Source of the DNA: Nitrososphaera sp.
Lineage (GTDB): Archaea; Thermoproteota; Nitrososphaeria; Nitrososphaerales; Nitrososphaeraceae
Length of the DNA stretch: 12,560 bases
Reading direction: 5' to 3'
Assembly: GCA_022545875.1 (NCBI GenBank)
Contig: JAKEIF010000151.1
Location: 1-12,560 of the forward strand
In this document: positions 1,233-12,560 of the stretch, one piece after another
Layout of the letters: each line of letters opens with the position of its first letter
How positions within the stretch are numbered: the first letter of the stretch is position 1
The notes under the pieces: generated by a model
Database searches by the model: none
What the model saw: only the letters and a program-made list of their open reading frames with translations
What the model was told of the DNA's origin: nothing
Translations under genes and position numbers: made by a program

Positions 1233-2357
1233 ATGCCAGAGATTTGGCTCAAGTACGGCACGACGGATATAGTGCTGGACATCAAGTTTGACAACTTGGC
1301 TAGCCAGGTATCCTCTACATTCCAGCCTCTTCCCGAAGATCAGGTCAAGGCTGCTTTTGACGGAGTGCCATTGACAGACAACATGCTGTTGATGGTGCTC
1401 TCGCCTTCAAAGGCCGCTGCGAAAGGCGCCCTCATGCTGGTTGAGGCAGCACGTGCCAAGGGCTTTGGCATCACAATCGACGTGCCGCCAAAAATGGCAG
1501 GGACGCTGCGGACAAACCTTACCGCTCTGGCAGGAGGCGAAGTGATTTCAATAAACCGTGCGGATTACCATTCAGCTCAGGAAAGAACCGGCAAATTTCA
1601 ATCAACAGTAACGCTTTCGACTGTTTCATACGACCCGCTTTTTGGGTTTGCCGGCTCGCCTACCGGAATCCTTAGAAACTTTATGCCGGAAAAGATGGTC
1701 GAAGCATTCAATGCTAGACACGACAACCTGCCGTCTCCAGGCGAAGAAGTCGAGCCGCTAAAGGTCGCGCTCTCTGCAACCGAGAACATCGCATCTACTT
1801 CAGTTGAACTTGTAGCCAACAACTCCGGCATCGCTGGCGTCCATACGGGAAGTATACGGGAAGCATTTGGCAAGGCAACTTCACAGCTCAAGTCGATATC
1901 GGTAGTGGAGGAAGAGCCGGCCAAGTGTGCAGTCATGAGTGCAAGTACGGATGCAGTAGTCCAGACCACTCTCGCGTCATCGCTCAATTCCCTTTGGAAC
2001 AACATACACATCGTCAGGGAAGGCGGGACCGCGATATTGTTGGCGGAAAGCAGGGAAGGAATCGGCGGTGGGGCTCTCCAGACCATGGTTGAAGGAAGGC
2101 TCAAGCCGGAGCATCTAAGCCAGGGCCCCTACATCGAAGGGCTAGAGCACCTTTTTTTTGCAAATGAATTGCGACAAAAATACGAGCTCGGACTGGTGTC
2201 AACTCTTCCGCGCTATTATGCAGGGACCAAGCTCGGTTTTACCACATACTCTGGCATGAATGACGTCTTGCAAAAGCTGCCAGAGAAAATCGGCAAGAGC
2301 TATAGGGCAATAGTGCTCTCTGACGCTGATATCACTTTGCTAAGGCCCAGAATCTAG
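1233..2357 (+). CDS. LarA/DUF2088-family protein with apparently degenerate cofactor site
   Basis: A 374-residue protein with the overall plan of lactate racemase LarA and related nickel-pincer-dependent epimerases. The N-terminus (IWLKYGTTDIVLDI, residues 4-17) resembles the usual YG-x-V-x-V opening. A segment at 133-150 (YDPLFGFAGSPTGILRNF) resembles the LarA PHxFaGySGGrK region, and VREGGTAILLAESREGIGGG (261-280) resembles the C-terminal domain signature. Known LarA proteins bind the nickel-pincer nucleotide through a lysine and use two catalytic histidines. Here the second histidine position reads P-L-F and the lysine position reads threonine, and no equivalent of the first GTHR motif is visible, so racemase activity is doubtful. 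The ATG at 1233 lies about 25 bp from the shared TATA element. The gene ends on CTAG, overlapping the stop of the opposing protease gene. The exact role is unknown. Confidence 0.7.
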   Translation: MPEIWLKYGTTDIVLDIKFDNLASQVSSTFQPLPEDQVKAAFDGVPLTDNMLLMVLSPSKAAAKGALMLVEAARAKGFGITIDVPPKMAGTLRTNLTALAGGEVISINRADYHSAQERTGKFQSTVTLSTVSYDPLFGFAGSPTGILRNFMPEKMVEAFNARHDNLPSPGEEVEPLKVALSATENIASTSVELVANNSGIAGVHTGSIREAFGKATSQLKSISVVEEEPAKCAVMSASTDAVVQTTLASSLNSLWNNIHIVREGGTAILLAESREGIGGGALQTMVEGRLKPEHLSQGPYIEGLEHLFFANELRQKYELGLVSTLPRYYAGTKLGFTTYSGMNDVLQKLPEKIGKSYRAIVLSDADITLLRPRI

Positions 2358-3541
2358 ACTAGGAACGACGGGATAGGGGCGCAGAGAGCGCCAAGTGCCA
2401 TGGCCACGATGAATAGAGCCTTTCTCCCGCTTGACAGAGATGTCACATCATCAAGAGGAGGGTTATCCGGCGCTCTTAGCGTGAGCAGCAAAGCAAGCGC
2501 ACCAATTATCCAAAATGTCATTGTAAACATTGGCAGCACGAGCGGAGGCAATGCAAACATGGCTACTACCATAGCGAAGGTGATCTGCCTGTGATACCGG
2601 GCCCCCAGAGTCGAGCGAAGGATGTGACCGCCATCGAGTTGAGACGCGGGGATAAGGTTGAGGAACGTGAGAAAGAATCCCAGCCAAGCGGCAAACATTA
2701 CCGGCGACATGACAAGCACGCCTTCATCTGTAAATGTGCCCGTCAACTGCATGGTCGCTATCATGAGAAGGCTAGAATTTAACTCAAAGAGTTCGCTGCT
2801 GCCCAAAAGCCTCTCAGCTTCGTCAAGCGGTATCAAAACGGAGATTGACGATCCGTATATTGACACAATAACTGTCACTATAAGGCCTGCGATGGGACCC
2901 GATATTCCCACGTCAAACATTGCGTTTCGAGTCGGCATGTTACTTTTCATACGTATCATCGCCCCTAGCGTAGGCGAAAAGAGGCCGGGGGCCAGCGGTA
3001 TGAAATAAGGCCAGGAGATGCGAATGCCATAATGCTTCGCCGCTATCATGTGGCCCAGCTCGTGAATCCCCAGGATGCCCATAAGCGACATCGTGTAGAC
3101 GATGGCAAGCATTATGGGATCCTGTATCCCCATTCTTGCAAATACAGAATCAGAACGCATGATGCCATCAACGAACACAACTGTCAGCGTAACTATGAAA
3201 AAGGCAAGCGGGATAATTCGGAAAAGGTCTTTCTTTGCCTTTTGCGGAGGAAGCCTCTGGACTGTTAGTACGGTGCCGCCAGATACCGACAGCCTCACGG
3301 ATTTCAGCGTTGGCATCAGCCATCGTATGTATTGCCTCTTGGTGACGGAAGCCACCATCCCTATTTTTCCAAGCTGGTGCAAAAGAGACGGAAACTTGTG
3401 GCGGACATCGGATTCTGCAATGAGAAACTGGACGTAATCGTCCATGGCGTTGTGCTGAAAGTCCTTTACCGTGAAGAGTGACGAGACGATGGGGATCGCG
3501 CGAGTATAATCGCCACTTAGAATGCTGGCCACAGCTACCAT
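2354..3541 (-). CDS. Site-2-protease-like M50 membrane metalloprotease
   Basis: Multi-pass intramembrane zinc protease of the S2P/M50 family. Numbered from a TTG at 3559, it has a soluble N-terminal region of about 110 residues, then a hydrophobic segment (about 113-131), the zinc site GIHELGHMIAAKHYG in a hydrophobic segment (164-178), and several more membrane segments. The second zinc-ligand motif is NLIPASQLDGGH (301-312). Glutamate, both histidines and the LDG aspartate are all present, so it should be catalytically competent. I prefer the ATG at 3541 (395 aa) to the TTG at 3559, because the TATA-like box overlaps 3559 and would place transcription start near 3541. There is no recognisable PDZ domain. 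The substrate is unknown; the context (divergent acetyltransferase, convergent LarA-like gene) does not suggest one. Confidence 0.88.
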   Translation of the reverse strand: MVAVASILSGDYTRAIPIVSSLFTVKDFQHNAMDDYVQFLIAESDVRHKFPSLLHQLGKIGMVASVTKRQYIRWLMPTLKSVRLSVSGGTVLTVQRLPPQKAKKDLFRIIPLAFFIVTLTVVFVDGIMRSDSVFARMGIQDPIMLAIVYTMSLMGILGIHELGHMIAAKHYGIRISWPYFIPLAPGLFSPTLGAMIRMKSNMPTRNAMFDVGISGPIAGLIVTVIVSIYGSSISVLIPLDEAERLLGSSELFELNSSLLMIATMQLTGTFTDEGVLVMSPVMFAAWLGFFLTFLNLIPASQLDGGHILRSTLGARYHRQITFAMVVAMFALPPLVLPMFTMTFWIIGALALLLTLRAPDNPPLDDVTSLSSGRKALFIVAMALGALCAPIPSFLV

Positions 3542-3560
3542 AAGTTGTGTGCCAATCAAA

Positions 3561-3571
3561 TTTAAAGCATA
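3561..3571 (-). promoter_or_regulatory. TATA-like box of the M50 protease gene
   Basis: Minus-strand ATGCTTTAAAT is centred about 25 bp upstream of the ATG at 3541. This is the spacing expected for a leaderless transcript and is the reason the TTG at 3559 is rejected as the start. Confidence 0.45.
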
Positions 3572-3631
3572 TCCCGACTTTTACGCATCACCAGAAAGTT
3601 CTATTCTAAAACGCTGATAAGACCTATAACG

Positions 3632-3640
3632 TTAAATAAT
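3632..3640 (+). promoter_or_regulatory. TATA-like box of the N-acetyltransferase gene
   Basis: TTAAATAAT is centred about 29 bp upstream of the TTG at 3665, consistent with a leaderless or nearly leaderless mRNA. A second AT-rich stretch (TTTTTATC, about 3644-3651) is too close for a leaderless TTG start but would suit initiation at the in-frame GTG at 3686. Confidence 0.4.
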
Positions 3641-3664
3641 CTGTTTTTATCTTTAACTTCTAGG

Positions 3665-4162
3665 TTGCAAACTGCTCTGCGAAAAGTGGGCGGCTATGTA
3701 ATTCGCCGTTGCGAGGAACAAGACCTCCCTATGGTGATCGACATCAACATGGCTGCGCTTCCAGAGCACTACTCTGACTATTTCTTTGAATCAATCTTGA
3801 GGGAACTGCCTGAAGCGTTCATTGTCGCAGAGCTGGATAATAGAATTGTAGGCTATATCATGTGCAAGATCGAGTTCGGATTTTCCAATTTTCGCAAGCT
3901 CGGCTTTGTCAAAAAGGGCCATGTCGTTTCTGTAGCTGTGCTAGAGGAGCATAGGGGAAAGGGCCTTGGCAAGGCTCTGATGCTCGAAGGCATCAATGGC
4001 GCTATGCACAGGAGAAGCGACGAGATCTACCTTGAAGTCAGGGTGAGCAACACTGGAGCCGTGGTAATGTATGAAAAGCTCGGCTTTGAAACAAAGTCGA
4101 GGTTGCGTTCATACTACAGGGACGGGGAGGACGCTTACCTGATGGCCTTGGAACTTAACTAA
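3665..4162 (+). CDS. rimI: Ard1/RimI-type N-alpha-acetyltransferase (GNAT)
   Basis: Cytosolic GNAT enzyme expected to acetylate protein N-termini using acetyl-CoA. The 165-residue sequence closely follows the archaeal Ard1 pattern known from Sulfolobus: PEHYSDYFF (residues 33-41), VGYIMCKIEFGFSNF (62-76), KKGHVVSVAVLEEHRGKGLG (83-102) and YLEVRVSNTGAVVMYEKLGF (122-141), followed by YRDGEDAYLM. RGKGLG is the acetyl-CoA pyrophosphate-binding loop (R/Q-x-x-G-x-G/A). The start is TTG at 3665; an in-frame GTG at 3686 is the alternative and would remove only the first seven residues. It is divergent from the M50 gene. The next gene downstream has its own TATA-like box, so this is probably monocistronic. 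Confidence 0.92.
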   Translation: MQTALRKVGGYVIRRCEEQDLPMVIDINMAALPEHYSDYFFESILRELPEAFIVAELDNRIVGYIMCKIEFGFSNFRKLGFVKKGHVVSVAVLEEHRGKGLGKALMLEGINGAMHRRSDEIYLEVRVSNTGAVVMYEKLGFETKSRLRSYYRDGEDAYLMALELN

Positions 4163-4165
4163 AAC

Positions 4166-4174
4166 ATTATAAAG
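4166..4174 (+). promoter_or_regulatory. TATA-like box of the 74-aa membrane protein gene
   Basis: ATTATAAAG follows the acetyltransferase stop by a few bases and is centred about 33 bp before the ATG at 4203. This gives a predicted start site near 4196 and a very short leader. Confidence 0.5.
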
Positions 4175-4202
4175 TTCGTGGAAGAGCCAATTTCAGTTAT
4201 TA

Positions 4203-4427
4203 ATGAATGTCAAACGTAAGGGCAACAGAGGGACAGGAGCCGCCCTTCTCATTATTGCGATAGCGGCGTTCATAATCTACGCCTATTTTCTTCTCGGATC
4301 GCAATATACCATGATTATATTGCAGCTGACCGTGCTTGGCGCAGTAGCGCTGATGCTGACAGTCCTTGGCTGGATCGGCTATACAATGCTGACTGCTCCC
4401 AGGACAGAAGAGAAACCTAGCGGCTAA
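4203..4427 (+). CDS. Small two-helix membrane protein, unknown function
   Basis: A 74-residue protein with a basic N-terminus (NVKRKGNRG) and two hydrophobic helices at about residues 12-32 and 38-64. A short polar C-terminal tail follows (PRTEEKPSG). The positive N-terminus suggests both ends face the cytoplasm. I do not recognise a named family. The gene is supported by its own TATA-like box, a normal ATG start and the clear membrane topology. Its last 11 bases overlap the end of the opposing trm5 gene. Confidence 0.7.
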   Translation: MNVKRKGNRGTGAALLIIAIAAFIIYAYFLLGSQYTMIILQLTVLGAVALMLTVLGWIGYTMLTAPRTEEKPSG

Positions 4428-5262
4428 CGTATACGTCGGCTACGACCTGATAAAATCTTGGACCCACTTCCCTGACTATCCTGATGCCCTTGGCGGTGTG
4501 ATCGTATTTCGAGAACGCCTCGCTTGCGTCTGCAAGTCCTGCCTCTTGGCTCGCCTTTTTATTATCTGCCCTGACATGGGCAAAATAGTGAACGATGCCC
4601 CCGCTAGGCCTTAGGGCAAGTACCGCTTCATTTACGAAATCCTTGGCGCGCTCGGGCAGCGGCATGAGCACCCTGTCGGCGCTTCCTGCAAGCCGATCCT
4701 TGATCACTTTCGCTGCGTCGCCGGATATCGATTCAACGCGGTCCTGCACTTTGTTCAGTTTAGCATTGATGGTGCACAACTCGGCTGCGGCAATATTAGA
4801 GTCAATGCTGTATACCCTGCATGTCTTGTTTGCTTTTGCGATAACAATAGAGTACGTCCCGACTCCGGCAAACATGTTGACAATGACCTCGTCATCTTGC
4901 ACCATGTCAGCTATCCGCTGTCGCTCAGTTGACAGCCGGGGAGAAAAATACGCTTTTGCGACATCAACTTTGAATCTGCAGCCGTGTTCCTTGTATTCAG
5001 TCATGGTCGTATTCTGGCCAGCCAGAAACTCGAGATCCCGAACTCGAAAATCCCCCTGTACCGCTGAAACCTGCGCAAAGACACTTCTTGCTGTCTTTAT
5101 ATTGTCAAGTATTGCCTGAGCTATTACCAGCTTTTTGGACAACAAGGCATCAGGGATTTTTATTATAACGATTGAGCCTATCTGATCAAAGGCAGAGTAA
5201 ACCTGTGAGGTCTCCTCCGGCGAAAGTACGGTTCCCAAGACTTCTTTGAGCATGTGGGGCAT
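4417..5262 (-). CDS. trm5: Trm5-type tRNA (guanine37-N1)-methyltransferase
   Basis: Class I SAM-dependent methyltransferase expected to make m1G37 next to the anticodon, which prevents +1 frameshifting; in archaea it can also feed wyosine synthesis. In the 281 residues one sees an N-terminal region with IGSIVIIKIPDAL (28-40), the YFSPRLSTERQRI block (105-117), the SAM-binding motif VNMFAGVGTYSI (128-139), the acidic ribose-binding segment YSIDSN (151-156), and the MPLPERAKDFV motif (200-210) in the position of the Trm5 NLP motif. The PLP variant is what stands out. Taw2 (wyosine aminocarboxypropyl transfer) is the nearest alternative, but the MPLPERA motif favours Trm5. The ATG overlaps the TAA of ABCE1 (TAATG), so translation is probably coupled and no separate promoter is needed. 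Confidence 0.85.
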   Translation of the reverse strand: MPHMLKEVLGTVLSPEETSQVYSAFDQIGSIVIIKIPDALLSKKLVIAQAILDNIKTARSVFAQVSAVQGDFRVRDLEFLAGQNTTMTEYKEHGCRFKVDVAKAYFSPRLSTERQRIADMVQDDEVIVNMFAGVGTYSIVIAKANKTCRVYSIDSNIAAAELCTINAKLNKVQDRVESISGDAAKVIKDRLAGSADRVLMPLPERAKDFVNEAVLALRPSGGIVHYFAHVRADNKKASQEAGLADASEAFSKYDHTAKGIRIVREVGPRFYQVVADVYVSR

Positions 5263-7073
5263 TAGTGGTTCTTTACATAGTAATAGTTGCCTGATTGCTT
5301 CTGCTCCCTGTCCAGTCTGCCGGATTCCTTGTTTACGCGCGGCCTGCCTGTAGTTTCGTCTCGTCTGTATGTTATTGAAAGCGCCTTGAGGAAGCGATTC
5401 ATTCCGTCTTCTTTCCGCATTGGAGCCGTTGCAAGCCCCTGGCGGCCCGGCTCGCCTTCAAATATTACGAGCGTATCTGCTACCAAATCAATTAGCTGCA
5501 TGTCATGTTCTATTATGATGGCGGATCTTCCCTGGGCCCGTACGAAACGCTGAAGGAATTTGGCGATTGCAATCCTGTCCTCTGCATCGAGAAATGCGGA
5601 TGGTTCGTCTAGGGCGTAGATGTCTGCTTCGCGCAGGAGCGCCGCAGTTACAGCGACTTTCTGCAGCTCGCCGCCGCTGAGGGTCTTGACGTTCTTTTCA
5701 TAGAGCTTTTTCACTCCCATCGGGATGATTATCTGATCCTCAACGCTCGAGCCTTCAATAGCACTCTGATATGCCGTGTAAAGTAGCGAACGCACGTCGC
5801 CCTCATAATCCTGGTTAAGGTACTGCGGCTTGTAGGAAATCCTTGCGCCTATATCTATTGTACCAGAATCAGGCTTGTCAACGCCGGCAAGCATCTTCAT
5901 GAACGTTGTCTTGCCAAGTGCATTTGCGCCCACTACGCCCACAACCTCGCCCTTACGGACTTTGCCGGCAGAGATGGAAAGTGTGAATGAAGGAAATGAC
6001 TTCCTTAGGTCTGAATAACTCGCAACAGGCACGTCAAGTATGACGTCATCTATTGAAGAAGCGACATCGAACTTGAAAGCCTTGTCGCGGAACCGGACGT
6101 TTTCTGCTGGCAAAAAGCCTTCAAGAAAATTGTTGATCCCTACTTTGGTGCTCTGCAGTGTAGAGACAATCCCATATGCGCCTGGCTCACCATAAAGGAT
6201 GTGAACATAATCCGAGAGATAGTCAAGAAGCGTCATGTCGTGTTCTACCACCATTACTGACTTGCCGGCCTCTGCAAGCTCTTTCATTACCTTGGCCACT
6301 GCCAGCCTCTGGTAAACATCGTTGTACGATGATGGCTCGTCAAAAAAGTAGTACTCTGCATCCTTTGCGGCTGCTACAGCGACTGCCAGCCTCTGCAGCT
6401 CGCCGCCGCTCAACTGTGCAACGTCGCGGTCAAGTATATTCTCCAGGCCAAGCTGCTGAACGAGCTTGTCAGTCACACTGCGTTCATCATATTTTTTCAA
6501 CAACTCTTTTGGAATGCCCTTGAAGGCCTTTGGAATCAGGTAGACTAGCTGGGGCTTGATGCTTGCGCGCATTGTCCCAGATGCAATCTTTTCAAAGTGA
6601 GACTTTAGTTCTGTTCCCTGGAAGTATTTTAGTACTTCATCCCAAGAAACTTCAGAATTGTACTTGCCCAGATTGGGCTTTAGGTTTCCTGATAGCACGT
6701 TGACGACCGTCGACTTGCCCATTCCGTTCCTTCCCACCAATCCAACGACTGAACCCTTCTTTGGGGTTGGTAGGCGATAGAAGCGGAACGAGTTAATGCC
6801 ATACTGATGAACCTTCTCCTCTGAAAGCTCCCGTGCAAGGTTTACGATTACAATCGCGTCAAAGGGGCACTTTTTGATGCAAATGCCGCAGCCTGTGCAT
6901 AGGTCTTCGGATATTACGGCCTTGTTGTCTTCAGGCCTCTGGACGATGCACTCGCCGCCTGTCTTGTTTACTGGGCAGTAGATAATGCACTCAAGCCCGC
7001 ATTTTCTTGGCTGGCACAGTTCTTCGTCTAGTACTGCGACTCTATGAGTATTTTCTGCTTCAGAATTGCCCAA
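5262..7073 (-). CDS. abce1: ABCE1/Rli1 ribosome-recycling ATPase
   Basis: Essential soluble twin-ATPase that splits ribosomes after termination. The 603 residues show the full family architecture. The N-terminal two-cluster [4Fe-4S] domain has cysteines at 20, 25, 29, 33 and 42, then 59, 62, 65 and 69 (CTGCGICIKKCP). NBD1 has Walker A GRNGMGKS (114-121), signature LSGGE (221-225), FFDEPSSYNDVYQR and H-loop EHDM (277-280). NBD2 has Walker A GANALGKT (382-389), signature LSGGE (465-469), LDEPSAFLDAEDR and EHDM (522-525). The NBD2 P-loop has alanine where GPNGIGKT is common, but the core G-K-T is kept. The start must be TTG at 7073: the only nearby ATG is followed at once by TAA in frame, and no later start precedes the cysteines. 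It leads a two-gene operon with trm5. Confidence 0.97.
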   Translation of the reverse strand: MGNSEAENTHRVAVLDEELCQPRKCGLECIIYCPVNKTGGECIVQRPEDNKAVISEDLCTGCGICIKKCPFDAIVIVNLARELSEEKVHQYGINSFRFYRLPTPKKGSVVGLVGRNGMGKSTVVNVLSGNLKPNLGKYNSEVSWDEVLKYFQGTELKSHFEKIASGTMRASIKPQLVYLIPKAFKGIPKELLKKYDERSVTDKLVQQLGLENILDRDVAQLSGGELQRLAVAVAAAKDAEYYFFDEPSSYNDVYQRLAVAKVMKELAEAGKSVMVVEHDMTLLDYLSDYVHILYGEPGAYGIVSTLQSTKVGINNFLEGFLPAENVRFRDKAFKFDVASSIDDVILDVPVASYSDLRKSFPSFTLSISAGKVRKGEVVGVVGANALGKTTFMKMLAGVDKPDSGTIDIGARISYKPQYLNQDYEGDVRSLLYTAYQSAIEGSSVEDQIIIPMGVKKLYEKNVKTLSGGELQKVAVTAALLREADIYALDEPSAFLDAEDRIAIAKFLQRFVRAQGRSAIIIEHDMQLIDLVADTLVIFEGEPGRQGLATAPMRKEDGMNRFLKALSITYRRDETTGRPRVNKESGRLDREQKQSGNYYYVKNH

Positions 7074-7667: not shown

Positions 7668-8243
7668 TTATGCTCCAACATCTTCTCCAAGGTGGATCGC
7701 CTTTATTAGTTTCCTTACGTCATACGCGATTCTGTCAATTATTCCAAATGAAGAAGCAAGTCCATTAGGATCCCAGGCTCTGGTCTCGATGACGCAACAA
7801 TAGTTTGAGGCCCTGAGAGTGATCCTTTTCACCTCTTCTTTCATGATCGACTTTGAGAATTCATCTGACAAAGTGCTATCCTTTGCGAGAATTGTTGAAA
7901 TGACTCCGCCGCTCCAGCCAAGCCGGGTGACCTCGCCTTCAAGGAGTTCGTAGTACGGCCCGGCATCCAAAAGCTTGTGGGCATTGTCATCTCCCTCCAC
8001 GATAGAATCATTTTCAACGACGCAGTAGATGTTAAAGAAAGGGCCCATTCTCACGACTTCTTCGACTCCAAGGAAATCTACGTTGCCGCTTAGCATTCTG
8101 ATAAAGCCGTCTCTGTTTGAAAGCCATCTCTCAAAATACGGCCTCCGTACAGGATGTACGTCAAGCTCGATGCTGCCTATTCTTGAGCTATAGCCGTTCT
8201 CTTCAAGGGAGTTGACCAGACTATCTAGCTCAAAGACAGGCAT
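7668..8243 (-). CDS. Conserved-looking protein of unknown function, in operon with leucyl aminopeptidase
   Basis: A soluble, acidic 191-residue protein with no signal peptide, membrane segment or metal-binding motif that I can identify. Noticeable segments are IELDVHPVRRPYFERWL (residues 25-41), DAGPYYELLEGEVTRLGWSGG (93-113), and a C-terminal ASNYCCVIETRAWDPNG stretch (145-161) with paired cysteines. It looks globular with mixed alpha/beta character. The ATG lies six bases after the aminopeptidase TGA, so the two genes are almost certainly cotranscribed. The stop codon lies in the T-run just after the 3' end of the 5S rRNA gene on the other strand. I do not recognise the family. Its length and operon position make it a real gene. 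Confidence 0.8.
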   Translation of the reverse strand: MPVFELDSLVNSLEENGYSSRIGSIELDVHPVRRPYFERWLSNRDGFIRMLSGNVDFLGVEEVVRMGPFFNIYCVVENDSIVEGDDNAHKLLDAGPYYELLEGEVTRLGWSGGVISTILAKDSTLSDEFSKSIMKEEVKRITLRASNYCCVIETRAWDPNGLASSFGIIDRIAYDVRKLIKAIHLGEDVGA

Positions 8244-8249
8244 GGCTCA

Positions 8250-9761
8250 TCACGGCTGCTGCGGCTTTTCGTCTTCTGCAAGTAGCCGGACAAGCGTCCT
8301 TACGCCAAAGCCCGTGGCGCCTTTCGGATTATAGCTTCGCTCAAAAGTGCCGTCCTGGGTCCAAGCAGTTCCTGCAATGTCCACATGTGTCCAAGGTACT
8401 CCATTGACAAAGTTAGAGAGGAACGCGGCAGCAGTGATTGCGCCGCCAGGCCTGCCGCCGATATTACGAATGTCGGCAAAAGTGCTTTTTATCTGTTCAT
8501 GGAATTCTTCGTATAGCGGCAGTTCCCACATTTTTTCTCCGGTTTTGTCTGAATGTTTGCGTAGCCTGTCTGTGAGCTGCTTGTTTGTGCTGACTAGAGC
8601 GGCAACATTGGATCCAAGCGCGATTATGGCTGCGCCTGTCAGAGTCGCCAGATCGATCACTGCTTTTGGCGAATATGTTGCTATCCCGTATGCAAGCGCA
8701 TCGGCAAGTATCATCCGGCCCTCTGCGTCGGTGTTGAGAACTTCGACTGTCTTGCCGTTGTACATTTTGACAATATCACCGGGGCGGTATGAAGTAGAAG
8801 AAGGCATGTTTTCGGCAGATGGAACGATTGCAACAATATTTACTGCAAGCTTTAGTGACGCCGCGGCGCGCATGACGGCAAGCACCGTGCACCCGCCGCA
8901 CTTGTCAAACTTCATTTCATCCATCTTTTCGCCCGGCTTGATCGAAATGCCGCCTGTATCAAACGTCACTGCCTTTCCCACAAGCAAGTATGGCTTTTGG
9001 TCGCTGGGAGCTCCGTTGTATTCAAGTATGATTAGTTTTGGAGGGTTATTGCTCCCCTTCCCCACGGCGACGATTCCACCCATCCCCATGTTTTCCAATT
9101 CATATCGATCGATAATCCGCGATTTCATTCCATAATCTTGGGCGAGTGAACTTGCGATTCCGGCCAGCTGTGCGGGAGAGCAGTCATTTGGCGGCATGTT
9201 GCCGATGTCTCGTCCGAAATTCACAGCCTCGACCACAAGGCTCGTCCTCTCTGCTATCGACTGGAATTTAGGCGAATCAGAGTTTATCAGAATGGTTATC
9301 TCTTCAACCTTGGAAGGAGGACCCTTGCCGGTGTCCGGTGCCTTGTACCTGTCAAATGAATAAAGCGCAAGAGCCGCGCCCTCAGTCATTGCCTCTATGA
9401 GGCCCTCATCGATACTGGAGAACTGTAGCATCGAGAATTCCTTGACGCCTAGCTCTTTTGCCTTGTGCGCGGCTTTTCCCGCACAAATTCGAGCGCTCTC
9501 GTCAACGAATTTCTCGCGCTTGCCCAAGCCAAGCAACATTATCTTTTTCATCGGTCCCTTTCCTAGCGTGTATACAAGTACGCTCGAACCAAATGTTCCC
9601 CGAAACTCTTTGTTTTCCAGGGTCTCCTTGATTGACGCAAACACCGCGGGGTCCAGTTCCTTAGACTGCGAAAAATCGTTTTCCCCTTCAAAGACGCCTA
9701 TTACCAGAAGTGTAGTCTGTTTCTGGTCGATCTTTGCCTTCTCGACCTTGATCTGAACCAT
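8250..9761 (-). CDS. pepA: Leucyl aminopeptidase (M17 family)
   Basis: Cytosolic two-metal aminopeptidase that releases N-terminal residues from peptides, normally a hexamer. Numbered from a TTG at 9779 (509 aa), the ligand set is complete: K269 and D274 in VGKAVTFDTGGISIKPG, D292 in KFDKCGG, and D351 and E353 in the family signature NTDAEGRM (349-356), with the catalytic arginine R355. The N-terminal half (to about residue 170) is the usual less conserved macrodomain-like region. The ATG at 9761 (503 aa, starting MVQIKVEKAKIDQ) is preferred over the TTG at 9779, because a TATA-like box lies about 28 bp upstream of it. It is the first gene of an operon with an unknown 191-aa protein. Confidence 0.95.
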   Translation of the reverse strand: MVQIKVEKAKIDQKQTTLLVIGVFEGENDFSQSKELDPAVFASIKETLENKEFRGTFGSSVLVYTLGKGPMKKIMLLGLGKREKFVDESARICAGKAAHKAKELGVKEFSMLQFSSIDEGLIEAMTEGAALALYSFDRYKAPDTGKGPPSKVEEITILINSDSPKFQSIAERTSLVVEAVNFGRDIGNMPPNDCSPAQLAGIASSLAQDYGMKSRIIDRYELENMGMGGIVAVGKGSNNPPKLIILEYNGAPSDQKPYLLVGKAVTFDTGGISIKPGEKMDEMKFDKCGGCTVLAVMRAAASLKLAVNIVAIVPSAENMPSSTSYRPGDIVKMYNGKTVEVLNTDAEGRMILADALAYGIATYSPKAVIDLATLTGAAIIALGSNVAALVSTNKQLTDRLRKHSDKTGEKMWELPLYEEFHEQIKSTFADIRNIGGRPGGAITAAAFLSNFVNGVPWTHVDIAGTAWTQDGTFERSYNPKGATGFGVRTLVRLLAEDEKPQQP

Positions 9762-9784
9762 GATGTATTGACAGAACAATGAAC

Positions 9785-9794
9785 TTTATTTTAA
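9785..9794 (-). promoter_or_regulatory. TATA box of the aminopeptidase operon
   Basis: Minus-strand TTAAAATAAA is centred about 28 bp before the ATG at 9761 and only about 10 bp before the alternative TTG at 9779, which argues for the ATG start and a nearly leaderless mRNA. Confidence 0.55.
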
Positions 9795-9835
9795 CTTTAG
9801 AAGTCAGAGATTGGAATAGCCGAATCGAAGAGCAG

Positions 9836-9844
9836 CTATAAATA
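9836..9844 (+). promoter_or_regulatory. Strong TATA box of the PRC-barrel-like repeat gene
   Basis: CTATAAATA is a near-ideal archaeal TATA box, centred about 33 bp before the ATG at 9873. The predicted start site is near 9866-9868, giving a leader of about five bases. Confidence 0.65.
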
Positions 9845-9848
9845 GGCA

Positions 9849-9867
9849 GAACATGAATTAATTGTTC
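9849..9867. repeat. Operator-like inverted repeat GAACA-N9-TGTTC
   Basis: Two 5-bp arms (GAACA at 9849-9853, TGTTC at 9863-9867) flank an AT-rich 9-bp spacer. The element lies between the TATA box and start codon of the repeat-protein gene, over the expected transcription start. It is short and could occur by chance. Confidence 0.25.
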
Positions 9868-9872
9868 AGATT

Positions 9873-10448
9873 ATGGCCTCCGGCAAATACTTTAACAGAG
9901 GTGTAAAGGCGTTGGATGCTCCGCATGTTGGTCACGTCGTTCGAGAAACTTCAGACATGATCGTAGTCTTTGGTCAGGGAGACGACAGGTATGACATACC
10001 AAAGTCAGCCATCAAGTTTGCGGCAGCCAATGTTCTAATCAATTTGCCATTTCACGAGATCGTAAAGAAGTATAAAGTTAGCAGGGAGGAGCCACTGCCC
10101 ACTGATGCCAAGACAGCAACTGCAGACACGATAGAAGCAGTTGACTTGGCGACATATGAGGGAAGATATCCAAAGTCGCTTTTCAACAAAGGCGTTAGGA
10201 CCCAGGATGAAGAGCACATCGGTCACGTAATGATGGAAGCCAAGAGCAAGATCGTGGTTTTTGGCCACTACGATTGGAGATTTGACATCCCCAAGAACAA
10301 AATCATTGCAGTTGGAAGAAACGTCATCATCGGAGTAGACTACAAAGACGTTTTCAAGTACAAAGTCGACAGAAAGGCAGACCTACCAGGCGGCGGGTCT
10401 GTGAAAAAGTTGGGTGATGTCCCGGATTTTCCCAATTTCATGGGTTAG
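9873..10448 (+). CDS. Tandem-repeat PRC-barrel-like protein
   Basis: A 191-residue soluble, charged protein built of two homologous halves. Residues about 6-76 (YFNRGVKALDAPHVGHVVRE, then IVVFGQGDDRYDIPKSAI, then LINLPFHEIVKKYKV) match about 103-172 (LFNKGVRTQDEEHIGHVMME, then IVVFGHYDWRFDIPKNKI, then IIGVDYKDVFKYKV). The pattern of a G-H-V turn, a hydrophobic strand and D-I-P-K-x-x-I resembles PRC-barrel or DUF2171-type small beta-barrels, which often mediate RNA or protein contacts. That family link is a judgement from pattern only. A linker of about 25 residues separates the halves, and a glycine/proline tail follows. The very good TATA box suggests strong expression. The TAG stop overlaps the TAA of the opposing DCC-like gene. 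Confidence 0.85.
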   Translation: MASGKYFNRGVKALDAPHVGHVVRETSDMIVVFGQGDDRYDIPKSAIKFAAANVLINLPFHEIVKKYKVSREEPLPTDAKTATADTIEAVDLATYEGRYPKSLFNKGVRTQDEEHIGHVMMEAKSKIVVFGHYDWRFDIPKNKIIAVGRNVIIGVDYKDVFKYKVDRKADLPGGGSVKKLGDVPDFPNFMG

Positions 10449-10861
10449 AATCTAAAGGTCGCCCCGTGGCTCAATAGCTTCAAAATCCGCCTCAGGGTGT
10501 TCGTCGACGTAAAGCACGACATGCCTTGCTCGTATTCGCAGGCGATCGCAGAATCGGAACGATCCTTGCTGCCCCGACCCGCAAGCATTCCAAAGGCAAT
10601 TTCCTTTGTCACACGCGGCAGACCAGACCTGGCTCCAAAAGCTCCATTCCTGTTGACTAGCCAGAACATTTTCGTTGCATCGTACCCTGCGGGAAAAATG
10701 ATGCTCTTGGCTTGCCTTGCTTCTGGTGAATAGTAGTGGCCGGCGATTCTTATCCACCCCCTCGAAAGGCTCTTTGCGATCTGGGCAAACCTTGTGCACG
10801 AATAGCACTTGTCGTCATATATCAACAGAGGCCGCATGAAAAGCGACGATATCGACGACAT
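10445..10861 (-). CDS. DCC/DUF393-like small thiol oxidoreductase-type protein
   Basis: Numbered from the ATG at 10867 (140 aa), the protein has LLIYDDKCYSCTRFAQIA (residues 14-31). This matches the DCC family hallmark, an aspartate followed closely by CxxC (C21, C24), near the N-terminus of a small thioredoxin-like fold. The remainder is basic and includes a FWLVNRNGAFGARSG segment (68-82), as in DUF393 proteins where a strand and small domain follow. Function in the family is poorly known; a thiol-disulphide role is usually assumed. The start is ambiguous: ATGs at 10867, 10861 and 10837 are all in frame, and a TATA-like box at 10882-10890 favours 10861. No signal peptide is obvious. The stop overlaps the stop of the convergent repeat-protein gene. 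Confidence 0.72.
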   Translation of the reverse strand: MSSISSLFMRPLLIYDDKCYSCTRFAQIAKSLSRGWIRIAGHYYSPEARQAKSIIFPAGYDATKMFWLVNRNGAFGARSGLPRVTKEIAFGMLAGRGSKDRSDSAIACEYEQGMSCFTSTNTLRRILKLLSHGATFRF

Positions 10862-10881
10862 GTGCATAATTCGTGTCAGAA

Positions 10882-10890
10882 CCTATTAAG
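10882..10890 (-). promoter_or_regulatory. TATA-like box of the DCC-like gene
   Basis: Minus-strand CTTAATAGG is centred about 25 bp before the ATG at 10861, suggesting leaderless initiation there instead of at 10867. Confidence 0.35.
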
Positions 10891-10949
10891 TCTTGGTCAG
10901 GCTCAAGAGTAAGATTACATAGGAGTTCTTGTGCTATCTGCGGAGCTAG

Positions 10950-10959
10950 CTTTTTATCT
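10950..10959 (+). promoter_or_regulatory. TATA-like box upstream of the transketolase-epimerase fusion gene
   Basis: CTTTTTATCT resembles the TTTTTATC element in front of the LarA-like gene. It predicts a start site near 10981 and a leader of about 27 bases. The leader would contain GGAG (10995-10998), nine bases before the ATG at 11008, a reasonable ribosome binding site. Confidence 0.45.
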
Positions 10960-10960
10960 T

Positions 10961-10978
10961 GCTCTGAAGAGCTTTTTT
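10961..10978 (+). terminator. Hairpin plus T6, intrinsic-terminator-like
   Basis: GCTC-TGAA-GAGC forms a four-bp stem with a TGAA tetraloop (extendable to five pairs with a two-base loop), followed at once by six T residues. It lies between the presumed TATA box and start site of the fusion gene. It may stop transcripts coming from the upstream plus-strand gene, or be coincidental. Confidence 0.3.
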
Positions 10979-11007
10979 GTGTTACAGTTTACGCGGAGAG
11001 TGTGAGA

Positions 11008-12560
11008 ATGGGTTTTAACATGCGTTACCTTGACCTGAAAAGAAGAATCCGAGATGTTCGGATGTGGGCAATCCAGGGCATTGCAGAGGCAGGCTCGGGA
11101 CATCCGGGTGCGTCTTTCTCTGCGGCCGAGATCATGGGCACTTTGTATTTTAGGAAAATGAAGCATGAGCCGTCCAACCCCACGTGGGAGGACAGAGACT
11201 ATTTCATTAATTCAAAGGCGCATTCTGCGCCGGGGTTCTATTCTACCCTCGCCATGGCAGGGTATTTCCCCCCGGAGGAGCTCAGGACGCTGCGAAAGCT
11301 GGGGTCCAGGCTGCAGGGACACCCTGTGAGATTTTCTGAACGGCAGAGAGATCACAGTGTACCGGGCGTTGAATACTCGGGAGGATCCGAGGGCATTGGG
11401 CTTTCGGTTGGAATTGGGATAGCCCTTGCCAAAAGACTCGACGACAGAGAGAACCGAATCTATGTGCTCATAGGAGATGGTGAATCAAATGAGGGCCAGA
11501 TCTGGGAAGCTTCGATGGCGGCCGGCAAGTTCAAGCTGGATAACATAGTCGCGGTACTTGACAGAAATAGGATCCAGCAGGATGGCTTTACGGAAGACAT
11601 TATGCCACTTGACCCTACAAAGGATAAATGGGCCGCGTTTAACTGGCAAGTCTTTGAAGTCGACGGGCACAGAGTCGAGCAGATAGTTGACGCGCTGAAT
11701 AGGGCGGCTCAGATACACGACAAGCCCGTCATGATAGTGGCCAATACCGTCAAGGGCAACGGGATACGCCATATGGCAAACAACCCCCAGTGGCACGGAA
11801 AGGCCCCTCCTCGGAAGCACACCCCCATATTACTAGAAGAGCTCGAAAGCGAAATGCTGATTGCCCCATCGATCATCGCCGGCGAGCGCGAGAATTACGA
11901 GGACAAGATAAGAAAGGTAGAGCGCGAAGGCGTCGAAATGATCCACCTCGATGTAATGGATGGCAGGTTTGTCCCAAATACCACGTTCTTTGCCGACACG
12001 ATAAAAAAACTGCGCAGGCTGACCAGCTTGCCGTTTGACGCCCATTTGATGATTGAGCGGCCCCTTGAGCAGGTGCAGGAATACATTGATGCAAGATGCG
12101 ACATTATTACCGTGCACGCAGAGGCCTGCACCGGCGAAGAATTTGTGAAAATTCAGGACAAGCTTATCGCAAACGGGATAAGCCCCGGAATCGCGATAAA
12201 CCCGGCGACTGACGTCCCAGACTGGCTTTACTCCTGCCTCCACGATCTTGACGTTATTATCGTAATGTCTGTGAATCCGGGGTTCGCAGGCCAAAAGTTT
12301 ATGCCCGAAGTCATTCCAAAGATGGTGTCACTTAACAAAAAGCTCAGAGAACGCGGATTCAAGGGATACATTGAAGCAGACGGCGGGATTGACGCAACCA
12401 CTCTCCAGCAGGTCTATGACGCAGGGGCCAGGATATTTGTCGCGGGCAACGCGGTTTACGGGGGAGGAGACATCCACGGGGCAATAATACAGCTGAGACA
12501 CAAGGCCGCAGTTGCCCTTGAGCGTAAATTGCTTGACCATTCTACACATCTTGGGATAAG
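11008..12560 (+). CDS. Transketolase N-terminal subunit fused to ribulose-phosphate 3-epimerase (3' end outside window)
   Basis: One uninterrupted frame of 517 codons, still open at the window end. Residues 1-282 are a full archaeal-type transketolase N-terminal (ThDP-binding) subunit: AGSGHPGAS (28-36), SKAHSAPG (69-76, SKGH in most relatives), GGSEGIGLSVG (125-135), the GDGESNEGQIWEA signature (156-168) and WHGKAPP near its end. Residue 283 is the methionine of MLIAPSI, the normal start of ribulose-phosphate 3-epimerase, which runs to about 507. Its metal ligands H313, D315, H346 and D458 are all present (IHLDVMDGRFVPN, FDAHLM, EADGGID), with SVNPGFAGQKF (421-431). There is no linker. The epimerase converts ribulose 5-phosphate to xylulose 5-phosphate, the ketol donor of transketolase. 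The transketolase C-terminal half is not in the window. ATG 11008 has GGAG nine bases upstream; ATG 11020 is the alternative. Confidence 0.93.
   Translation, partial: MGFNMRYLDLKRRIRDVRMWAIQGIAEAGSGHPGASFSAAEIMGTLYFRKMKHEPSNPTWEDRDYFINSKAHSAPGFYSTLAMAGYFPPEELRTLRKLGSRLQGHPVRFSERQRDHSVPGVEYSGGSEGIGLSVGIGIALAKRLDDRENRIYVLIGDGESNEGQIWEASMAAGKFKLDNIVAVLDRNRIQQDGFTEDIMPLDPTKDKWAAFNWQVFEVDGHRVEQIVDALNRAAQIHDKPVMIVANTVKGNGIRHMANNPQWHGKAPPRKHTPILLEELESEMLIAPSIIAGERENYEDKIRKVEREGVEMIHLDVMDGRFVPNTTFFADTIKKLRRLTSLPFDAHLMIERPLEQVQEYIDARCDIITVHAEACTGEEFVKIQDKLIANGISPGIAINPATDVPDWLYSCLHDLDVIIVMSVNPGFAGQKFMPEVIPKMVSLNKKLRERGFKGYIEADGGIDATTLQQVYDAGARIFVAGNAVYGGGDIHGAIIQLRHKAAVALERKLLDHSTHLGI

Follow-up and report, generated by a model that had tools for sequence, protein, structure and literature searches.

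The window analyzed here is an entire contig (C139, 12,560 nucleotides) of a Nitrososphaera sp. assembly, and it ends within a gene that fuses the N-terminal half of a split transketolase (TktN) in frame to ribulose-phosphate 3-epimerase (Rpe). Very probably, the product is a bifunctional protein that joins a split-transketolase N subunit to a complete epimerase, would assemble as an alpha2beta2 complex with the C-terminal subunit TktC, and would take up xylulose 5-phosphate (Xu5P) in pentose synthesis. At the level of the sequences, this reading draws on a single reading frame, intact active-site residues, purifying selection on both halves in the pairs measured, a gene cluster, and a tree that points to one fusion. 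A preliminary description of the window supposed that such a fusion may already be annotated in related thaumarchaea. This proved correct: the fusion is already known from PMC11237513 (mSystems 2024), which reports a Tkt N-terminus/Rpe fusion (cluster 341.1) in 73 of 98 Thaumarchaeota assemblies.

Translation of positions 11,008 to 12,558 yielded a stop-free single frame of 517 residues. The truncated tktN-rpe gene occupies 11,008–12,560 on the forward strand, as defined by translation, Pfam matches and overlap with another contig of the same genome, C151. The final 57 bases of the window (12,504–12,560; no strand is assigned to this feature) are identical to the edge of C151, which extends the open frame to a stop and gives a fusion protein of approximately 546 amino acids. 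The preliminary description had reported a protein of 517 residues; this number holds for the open frame but not for the whole protein, because the window ends inside the gene. A close relative, the fusion at locus L004, is 92% identical and 546 amino acids long. On the forward strand, the gene can be divided into the transketolase N-terminal, thiamine diphosphate (ThDP)-binding half (residues 1–278; 11,008–11,841), a junction (residues 279–285; 11,842–11,862) placed from the L004 model, the alignment and the codons, the epimerase barrel (residues 285–497; 11,860–12,498), and the start of a C-terminal tail (residues 498–517; 12,499–12,558), the remainder of which, with a conserved Trp, lies on C151.

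Both halves were recognized by Pfam with scores far above the cut-offs. Transketolase_N (PF00456) matched residues 12–266 with 167 bits (cut-off 22), and Ribul_P_3_epim (PF00834) matched residues 285–484 with 197 bits (cut-off 21), covering profile positions 2–198 of 198. The Rpe subfamily model NF004076 gave 208 bits against a cut-off of 165. In the PDB, the transketolase part is closest in sequence to 6yak, the N-terminal subunit of a split transketolase, and the epimerase part to stand-alone epimerases. Conservation was assessed in an alignment of 42 rows drawn from the 50 fused loci described below: the window and 41 others. The eight fused loci omitted are L007, which contains a stop, L028, which is cut, and L021, L022, L023, L025, L032 and L049, which by their sequence ends are close to rows that were kept. 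H72, H105, D157, N187 and H263 of TktN, which we take to be the catalytic His and ThDP-site residues (GDG...N motif), were invariant in 42/42 rows. The same was true of the epimerase Ser and of H313, D315, H346 and D458, presumably the four metal ligands. The transketolase signatures and epimerase metal ligands noted in the preliminary description were thus confirmed. Ratios of nonsynonymous to synonymous substitution rates (dN/dS) were calculated for 11 pairs, in most of which dS was saturated. In the two low-dS pairs, dN/dS was approximately 0.05 for TktN and 0.13 for Rpe, so that both halves are under purifying selection in these pairs. The pyrimidine-binding and C-terminal domains of transketolase are encoded on a separate chain, tktC; the L009 copy carries PF02779 and PF02780.

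The fusion is widespread among relatives. TktN and Rpe are encoded in one open reading frame (ORF) at 50 of 52 loci (L001–L052, L001 being the window), and the other two, L045 and L051, stop at a contig edge within tktN. The preliminary description proposed looking downstream for the transketolase C subunit and ribose 5-phosphate isomerase. The former was found, since on C151 the fusion stop is followed by tktC and then by the transaldolase gene tal, and tktC lies directly downstream in 48 of the 50 fused loci, with tal next in 45; the others reach the contig end. The isomerase was not found there: transaldolase follows tktC, and RpiA is encoded on a separate contig, C196. In the window's own family, f1, 57 of 61 genomes gave a match, of which 55 span both domains (one of these, G009, with a TGA inside the match) and two (G047 and G050) are cut short. 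The four f1 genomes with no match (G003, G004, G017 and G049) are 65–85% complete. In a second family, f9, every one of the 62 genomes with a match in the phylum sample carries the fusion, 60 of them as one stop-free aligned piece and two (G178 and G204) as two pieces lying in one ORF. The nearest named relatives of the window protein are records of Nitrososphaera, followed by Nitrosocosmicus and Nitrosopumilus. The source assembly is fragmented (284 contigs, 72% complete), and an assembly error might therefore have joined two genes or masked a stop near 11,854. Such an artefact is rejected, with a probability so small as to be negligible, because independent assemblies show the same single frame in 49 of 51 loci (the other two are contig-cut) and the single-contig genomes G011, G014 and G015 also carry the single-frame fusion. 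A missed stop or frameshift near 11,854, named in the preliminary description as grounds for refutation, is likewise excluded together with chance, because the frame is the same in 50 of 52 loci.

Some individual records showed irregularities. At locus L007 (Nitrososphaera sp. UBA217), an in-frame stop interrupts the copy near residue 20 (about position 6058), possibly a sequence error. Three record titles are at odds with the protein, namely Nitrosopumilus for L030 and L034 and Nitrosopumilales for L012. L030 and L012 place among the tree rows of f1 (Nitrososphaeraceae), L030 beside Nitrosocosmicus; the tail of L034 is almost the same as in the Nitrosocosmicus rows.

The junction was examined in an AlphaFold2 model of L004 as a single chain (mean pLDDT 86, pTM 0.89). 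The last TktN helix (residues 269–280) runs almost straight into the first barrel strand (284–289), so the model indicates no real linker between the two halves. In the window, Met283 is encoded by an ATG at 11,854, directly before the epimerase, and a translation start near codon 283, or proteolysis, might also yield the two halves as separate chains. An ATG is present within codons 278–285 in 18 of 42 sequences, and an ATG, GTG or TTG in 26, which would allow internal initiation in those copies. However, codon 283 itself is ATG in only 1/42, and a start at Met283 was rejected for this lack of conservation; 16/42 sequences have none of the three codons in this interval. The helix-to-strand junction also argues against separate halves, there being no flexible linker in the model, though pLDDT falls to 68 in the block 291–300. 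We regard separate production of the halves as improbable.

Fused proteins also share a feature beyond the two domains. The distance from the DGG motif to the C-terminus is 79–91 residues in 41 complete fusions, a set that excludes the truncated window copy, compared to 46–69 residues in 13 unfused epimerases. This stretch contains a Trp in 41/41 fusions, always in a single alignment column (W521), compared to 1/13 unfused proteins, in which it is the last residue. In the L004 model, the tail forms helices at residues 489–515, 518–524, 526–536 and 539–544. In a comparison of the model with the PDB, the 50 rows listed extend to model residue 508 at most, leaving the tail unmatched among them. 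Tail dN/dS was 0.648 for L038/L044 (50 codons), 0.089 for L033/L035 (39 codons), and 0.206 and 0.088 in two more pairs. The helical C-terminal tail with its conserved Trp is an addition common to the fused forms.

In families f2, f3, f8 and f10, tktN, rpe and tktC are separate ORFs in the same order at all 12 loci read; tal is next in eight, three of the other four reach the contig end, and L112 continues for only about 700 bases after tktC. At both f3 loci, the stop of tktN overlaps the start of rpe in the sequence ATGA. The ammonia monooxygenase gene amoA (PF12942) was detected in 6/6 f1/f9 genomes and 6/6 f2/f3 genomes tested, and in 0/8 others tested. Fused rows group into a single clade in the TktN tree (support 99), the Rpe tree (98) and a four-gene tree (100/100), and a grouping of f1 with f2 was rejected (p-AU 3e-30). 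The two single-domain trees are quick trees, and the four-gene tree omits the f18 and DPANN rows (4 of 37). In the TktN tree alone, the unfused f2, f3, f8 and f10 group together (84), whereas f2 and f3 are nearer the fused clade in the Rpe tree (96) and the four-gene tree; the amoA-bearing clade has a support of only 93/92 in the latter and is not starred. The simplest reading of these trees is that the neighbouring tktN and rpe genes fused once, in an ancestor shared by f1 and f9 but not by f2 and f3. The fusion could be a neutral accident, in which a short deletion between overlapping neighbours did no harm and left two independent enzymes on one chain. The adjacency of tktN and rpe in unfused families, with the ATGA overlap in f3, would make fusion an easy mutation, and f2 and f3 manage without it. 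However, every f1 and f9 copy examined is fused unless cut by a contig edge, and the fused forms share the added tail. This neutral alternative seems possible but not probable, and a further point against it comes from a second fusion.

In two genomes of one genus of family f18 (G411 and G417), Rpe precedes TktN in one ORF (L127, positions 3099–4715 on the reverse strand, and L137) encoding 539 and 537 amino acids, as characterized by Pfam in the G411 copy; tktC and then tal lie directly downstream in both. This reverse-order fusion was found in 2/32 genomes searched from the genus, and a sample of 60 f18 genomes contained one reverse fusion (G411) and one Rpe-only match (G498). In both domain trees, the G411 and G417 sequences group with two DPANN rows, apart from the fused thaumarchaeal clade. 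In one Micrarchaeota locus, L067 (5971–7560), rpe and tktN share a reading frame that is interrupted by a single in-frame TAG followed by ATG, and this pair is 71% identical to the Rpe-TktN fusion. In two other genomes, G590 and G665, a match of this type likewise contains one in-frame stop. In the phylum of L067, 102 of 245 sampled genomes gave a match. The open-frame column suggested further reverse fusions, and these were rejected in all 12 loci read, where rpe and tktN are separate ORFs; the other matching genomes were judged from tabulated rows alone, among the matches listed. Because the trees group it with DPANN and the L067 pair is split by one TAG, Rpe-TktN is an independent fusion that arose from an rpe-tktN gene order. 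No mention of the reverse-order fusion was found in the literature listings searched or in the passages considered of PMC11237513, PMC11131427 and PMC7110647. The last of these names tkt and rpe in Bathyarchaeota, and the words 'fusion' and 'fused' are absent from its main text. Independent fusion of the same two domains in opposite orders is not readily reconciled with a neutral accident, and suggests a benefit of holding transketolase and Rpe together. A stronger proposal, that the TktN-Rpe chain with its fusion-specific helical tail forms an obligate assembly passing Xu5P directly between active sites and that Rpe-TktN is an independent solution to the same pressure, is doubtful.

The genomic distribution of TktN bears on the pathway that it would serve. 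TktN matches of at least 100 bits were present in 79 of 101 genomes searched and absent from 22. Phi (TIGR03127), an enzyme of the ribulose monophosphate (RuMP) pathway, scored at least 60 bits in 19 genomes, 12 of them above the curated cut-off. Such Phi matches occurred in 1 of the 79 TktN genomes (G064, 65 bits, in a 382-amino-acid frame) compared to 18 of the 22 lacking TktN, and the remaining four of these 22 are incomplete f1 genomes. Some Phi match, however weak, is present in 100/101 genomes; the weak ones are mostly in frames of about 590 amino acids that look like another sugar-isomerase protein. TktN and Phi are therefore nearly mutually exclusive in these 101 genomes, and because of this near exclusion the transketolase module appears to stand in for RuMP as a pentose source. 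The non-oxidative set (tkt, rpe, tal, rpiA) is present in the window's genome. For two families of ammonia-oxidizing archaea, the most likely route to pentoses is a non-oxidative pentose-phosphate gene cluster, and other families of the order carry Phi instead.

In the bifunctional-subunit reading, the ThDP-binding half of a split transketolase would lead without a linker into a complete metal-dependent epimerase. The C half is encoded by the adjacent gene, and the two proteins would form an alpha2beta2 transketolase of the split type in which each alpha chain bears an epimerase; we infer this assembly, its stoichiometry and the direction of flux. The two activities would be produced in a fixed ratio and kept together. 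Transketolase, with transaldolase of the same cluster, would convert fructose 6-phosphate and glyceraldehyde 3-phosphate to Xu5P, the fused epimerase would convert Xu5P to ribulose 5-phosphate, and RpiA, encoded elsewhere, would convert this to ribose 5-phosphate. Where an autotroph builds its sugars by gluconeogenesis, Xu5P is more likely a product of transketolase and a substrate of Rpe. Flow is thus probably from fructose 6-phosphate towards ribose 5-phosphate, with Rpe consuming the Xu5P made by transketolase. The preliminary description proposed that the fusion tethers Xu5P production to its use; the enzymes are indeed fused, but that proposal seems to assume that Rpe makes Xu5P, and from pathway considerations the reverse direction is more likely.

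Several points weigh against this reading. The Rpe half scores below the TIGR01163 equivalog cut-off (202.5 compared to 212.6 bits, over profile positions 1–211 of 211), which is a curated naming threshold and no structural feature; the whole-length match and the ligands suggest that it was missed through divergence. The amoA-bearing families f2 and f3 keep tktN and rpe separate, and the fusion is therefore dispensable for this way of life. The L004 model covers one chain; the oligomer, and where the epimerase would sit with respect to the complete active site of transketolase, lie beyond it. The protein may later be cleaved into two chains. Finally, the flux direction derives from general considerations of metabolism.

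Elsewhere in the window, Pfam identified a gene for an M17 leucyl aminopeptidase, together with a small divergent gene, upstream of the fusion (region 8250–12,560). Judged by eye, both likewise lie upstream in L009 (Nitrososphaera) and L044 (Nitrosopumilus), and the L044 aminopeptidase appears as two ORF pieces. Window ORFs at 1233–2354 (forward, 374 amino acids), 7671–8243 (reverse, 191) and 9873–10,445 (forward, 191) had no Pfam match at E 1e-5, and one at 10,448–10,867 (reverse, 140) had none at E 0.01.

The fusion can be compared to several known systems. A literature search found no paper on split transketolase in archaea, nor on split-gene transketolase. PMC11131427 reports transketolase expression in soil ammonia-oxidizing archaea, and 'fusion', 'fused' and 'epimerase' are absent from its main text. 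The cluster 341.1 fusion has the same two domains, order and lineage as that of the window, which is a further member. PMC11237513 infers a complete non-oxidative pentose-phosphate pathway (nPPP); the passages considered do not discuss the junction, the tail, the gene cluster or the number of origins, nor mention unfused amoA-bearing families, the reverse-order fusion or the near exclusion of Phi. The split transketolase 6yak, titled an active alpha2beta2 heterotetramer, has a chain of 309 residues and no epimerase. Stand-alone Rpe (NF004076; PDB 2fli and 5umf) has the same barrel and metal ligands as the fusion, whereas the window Rpe is joined to TktN and has an extra C-terminal helical tail. 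The bifunctional Hps-Phi enzyme of other archaea, named in PMC11237513, likewise unites in one protein two enzymes that serve pentose supply in archaea. However, its enzymes are different and belong to the RuMP pathway, and among the genomes searched Phi and TktN hardly ever occur together.
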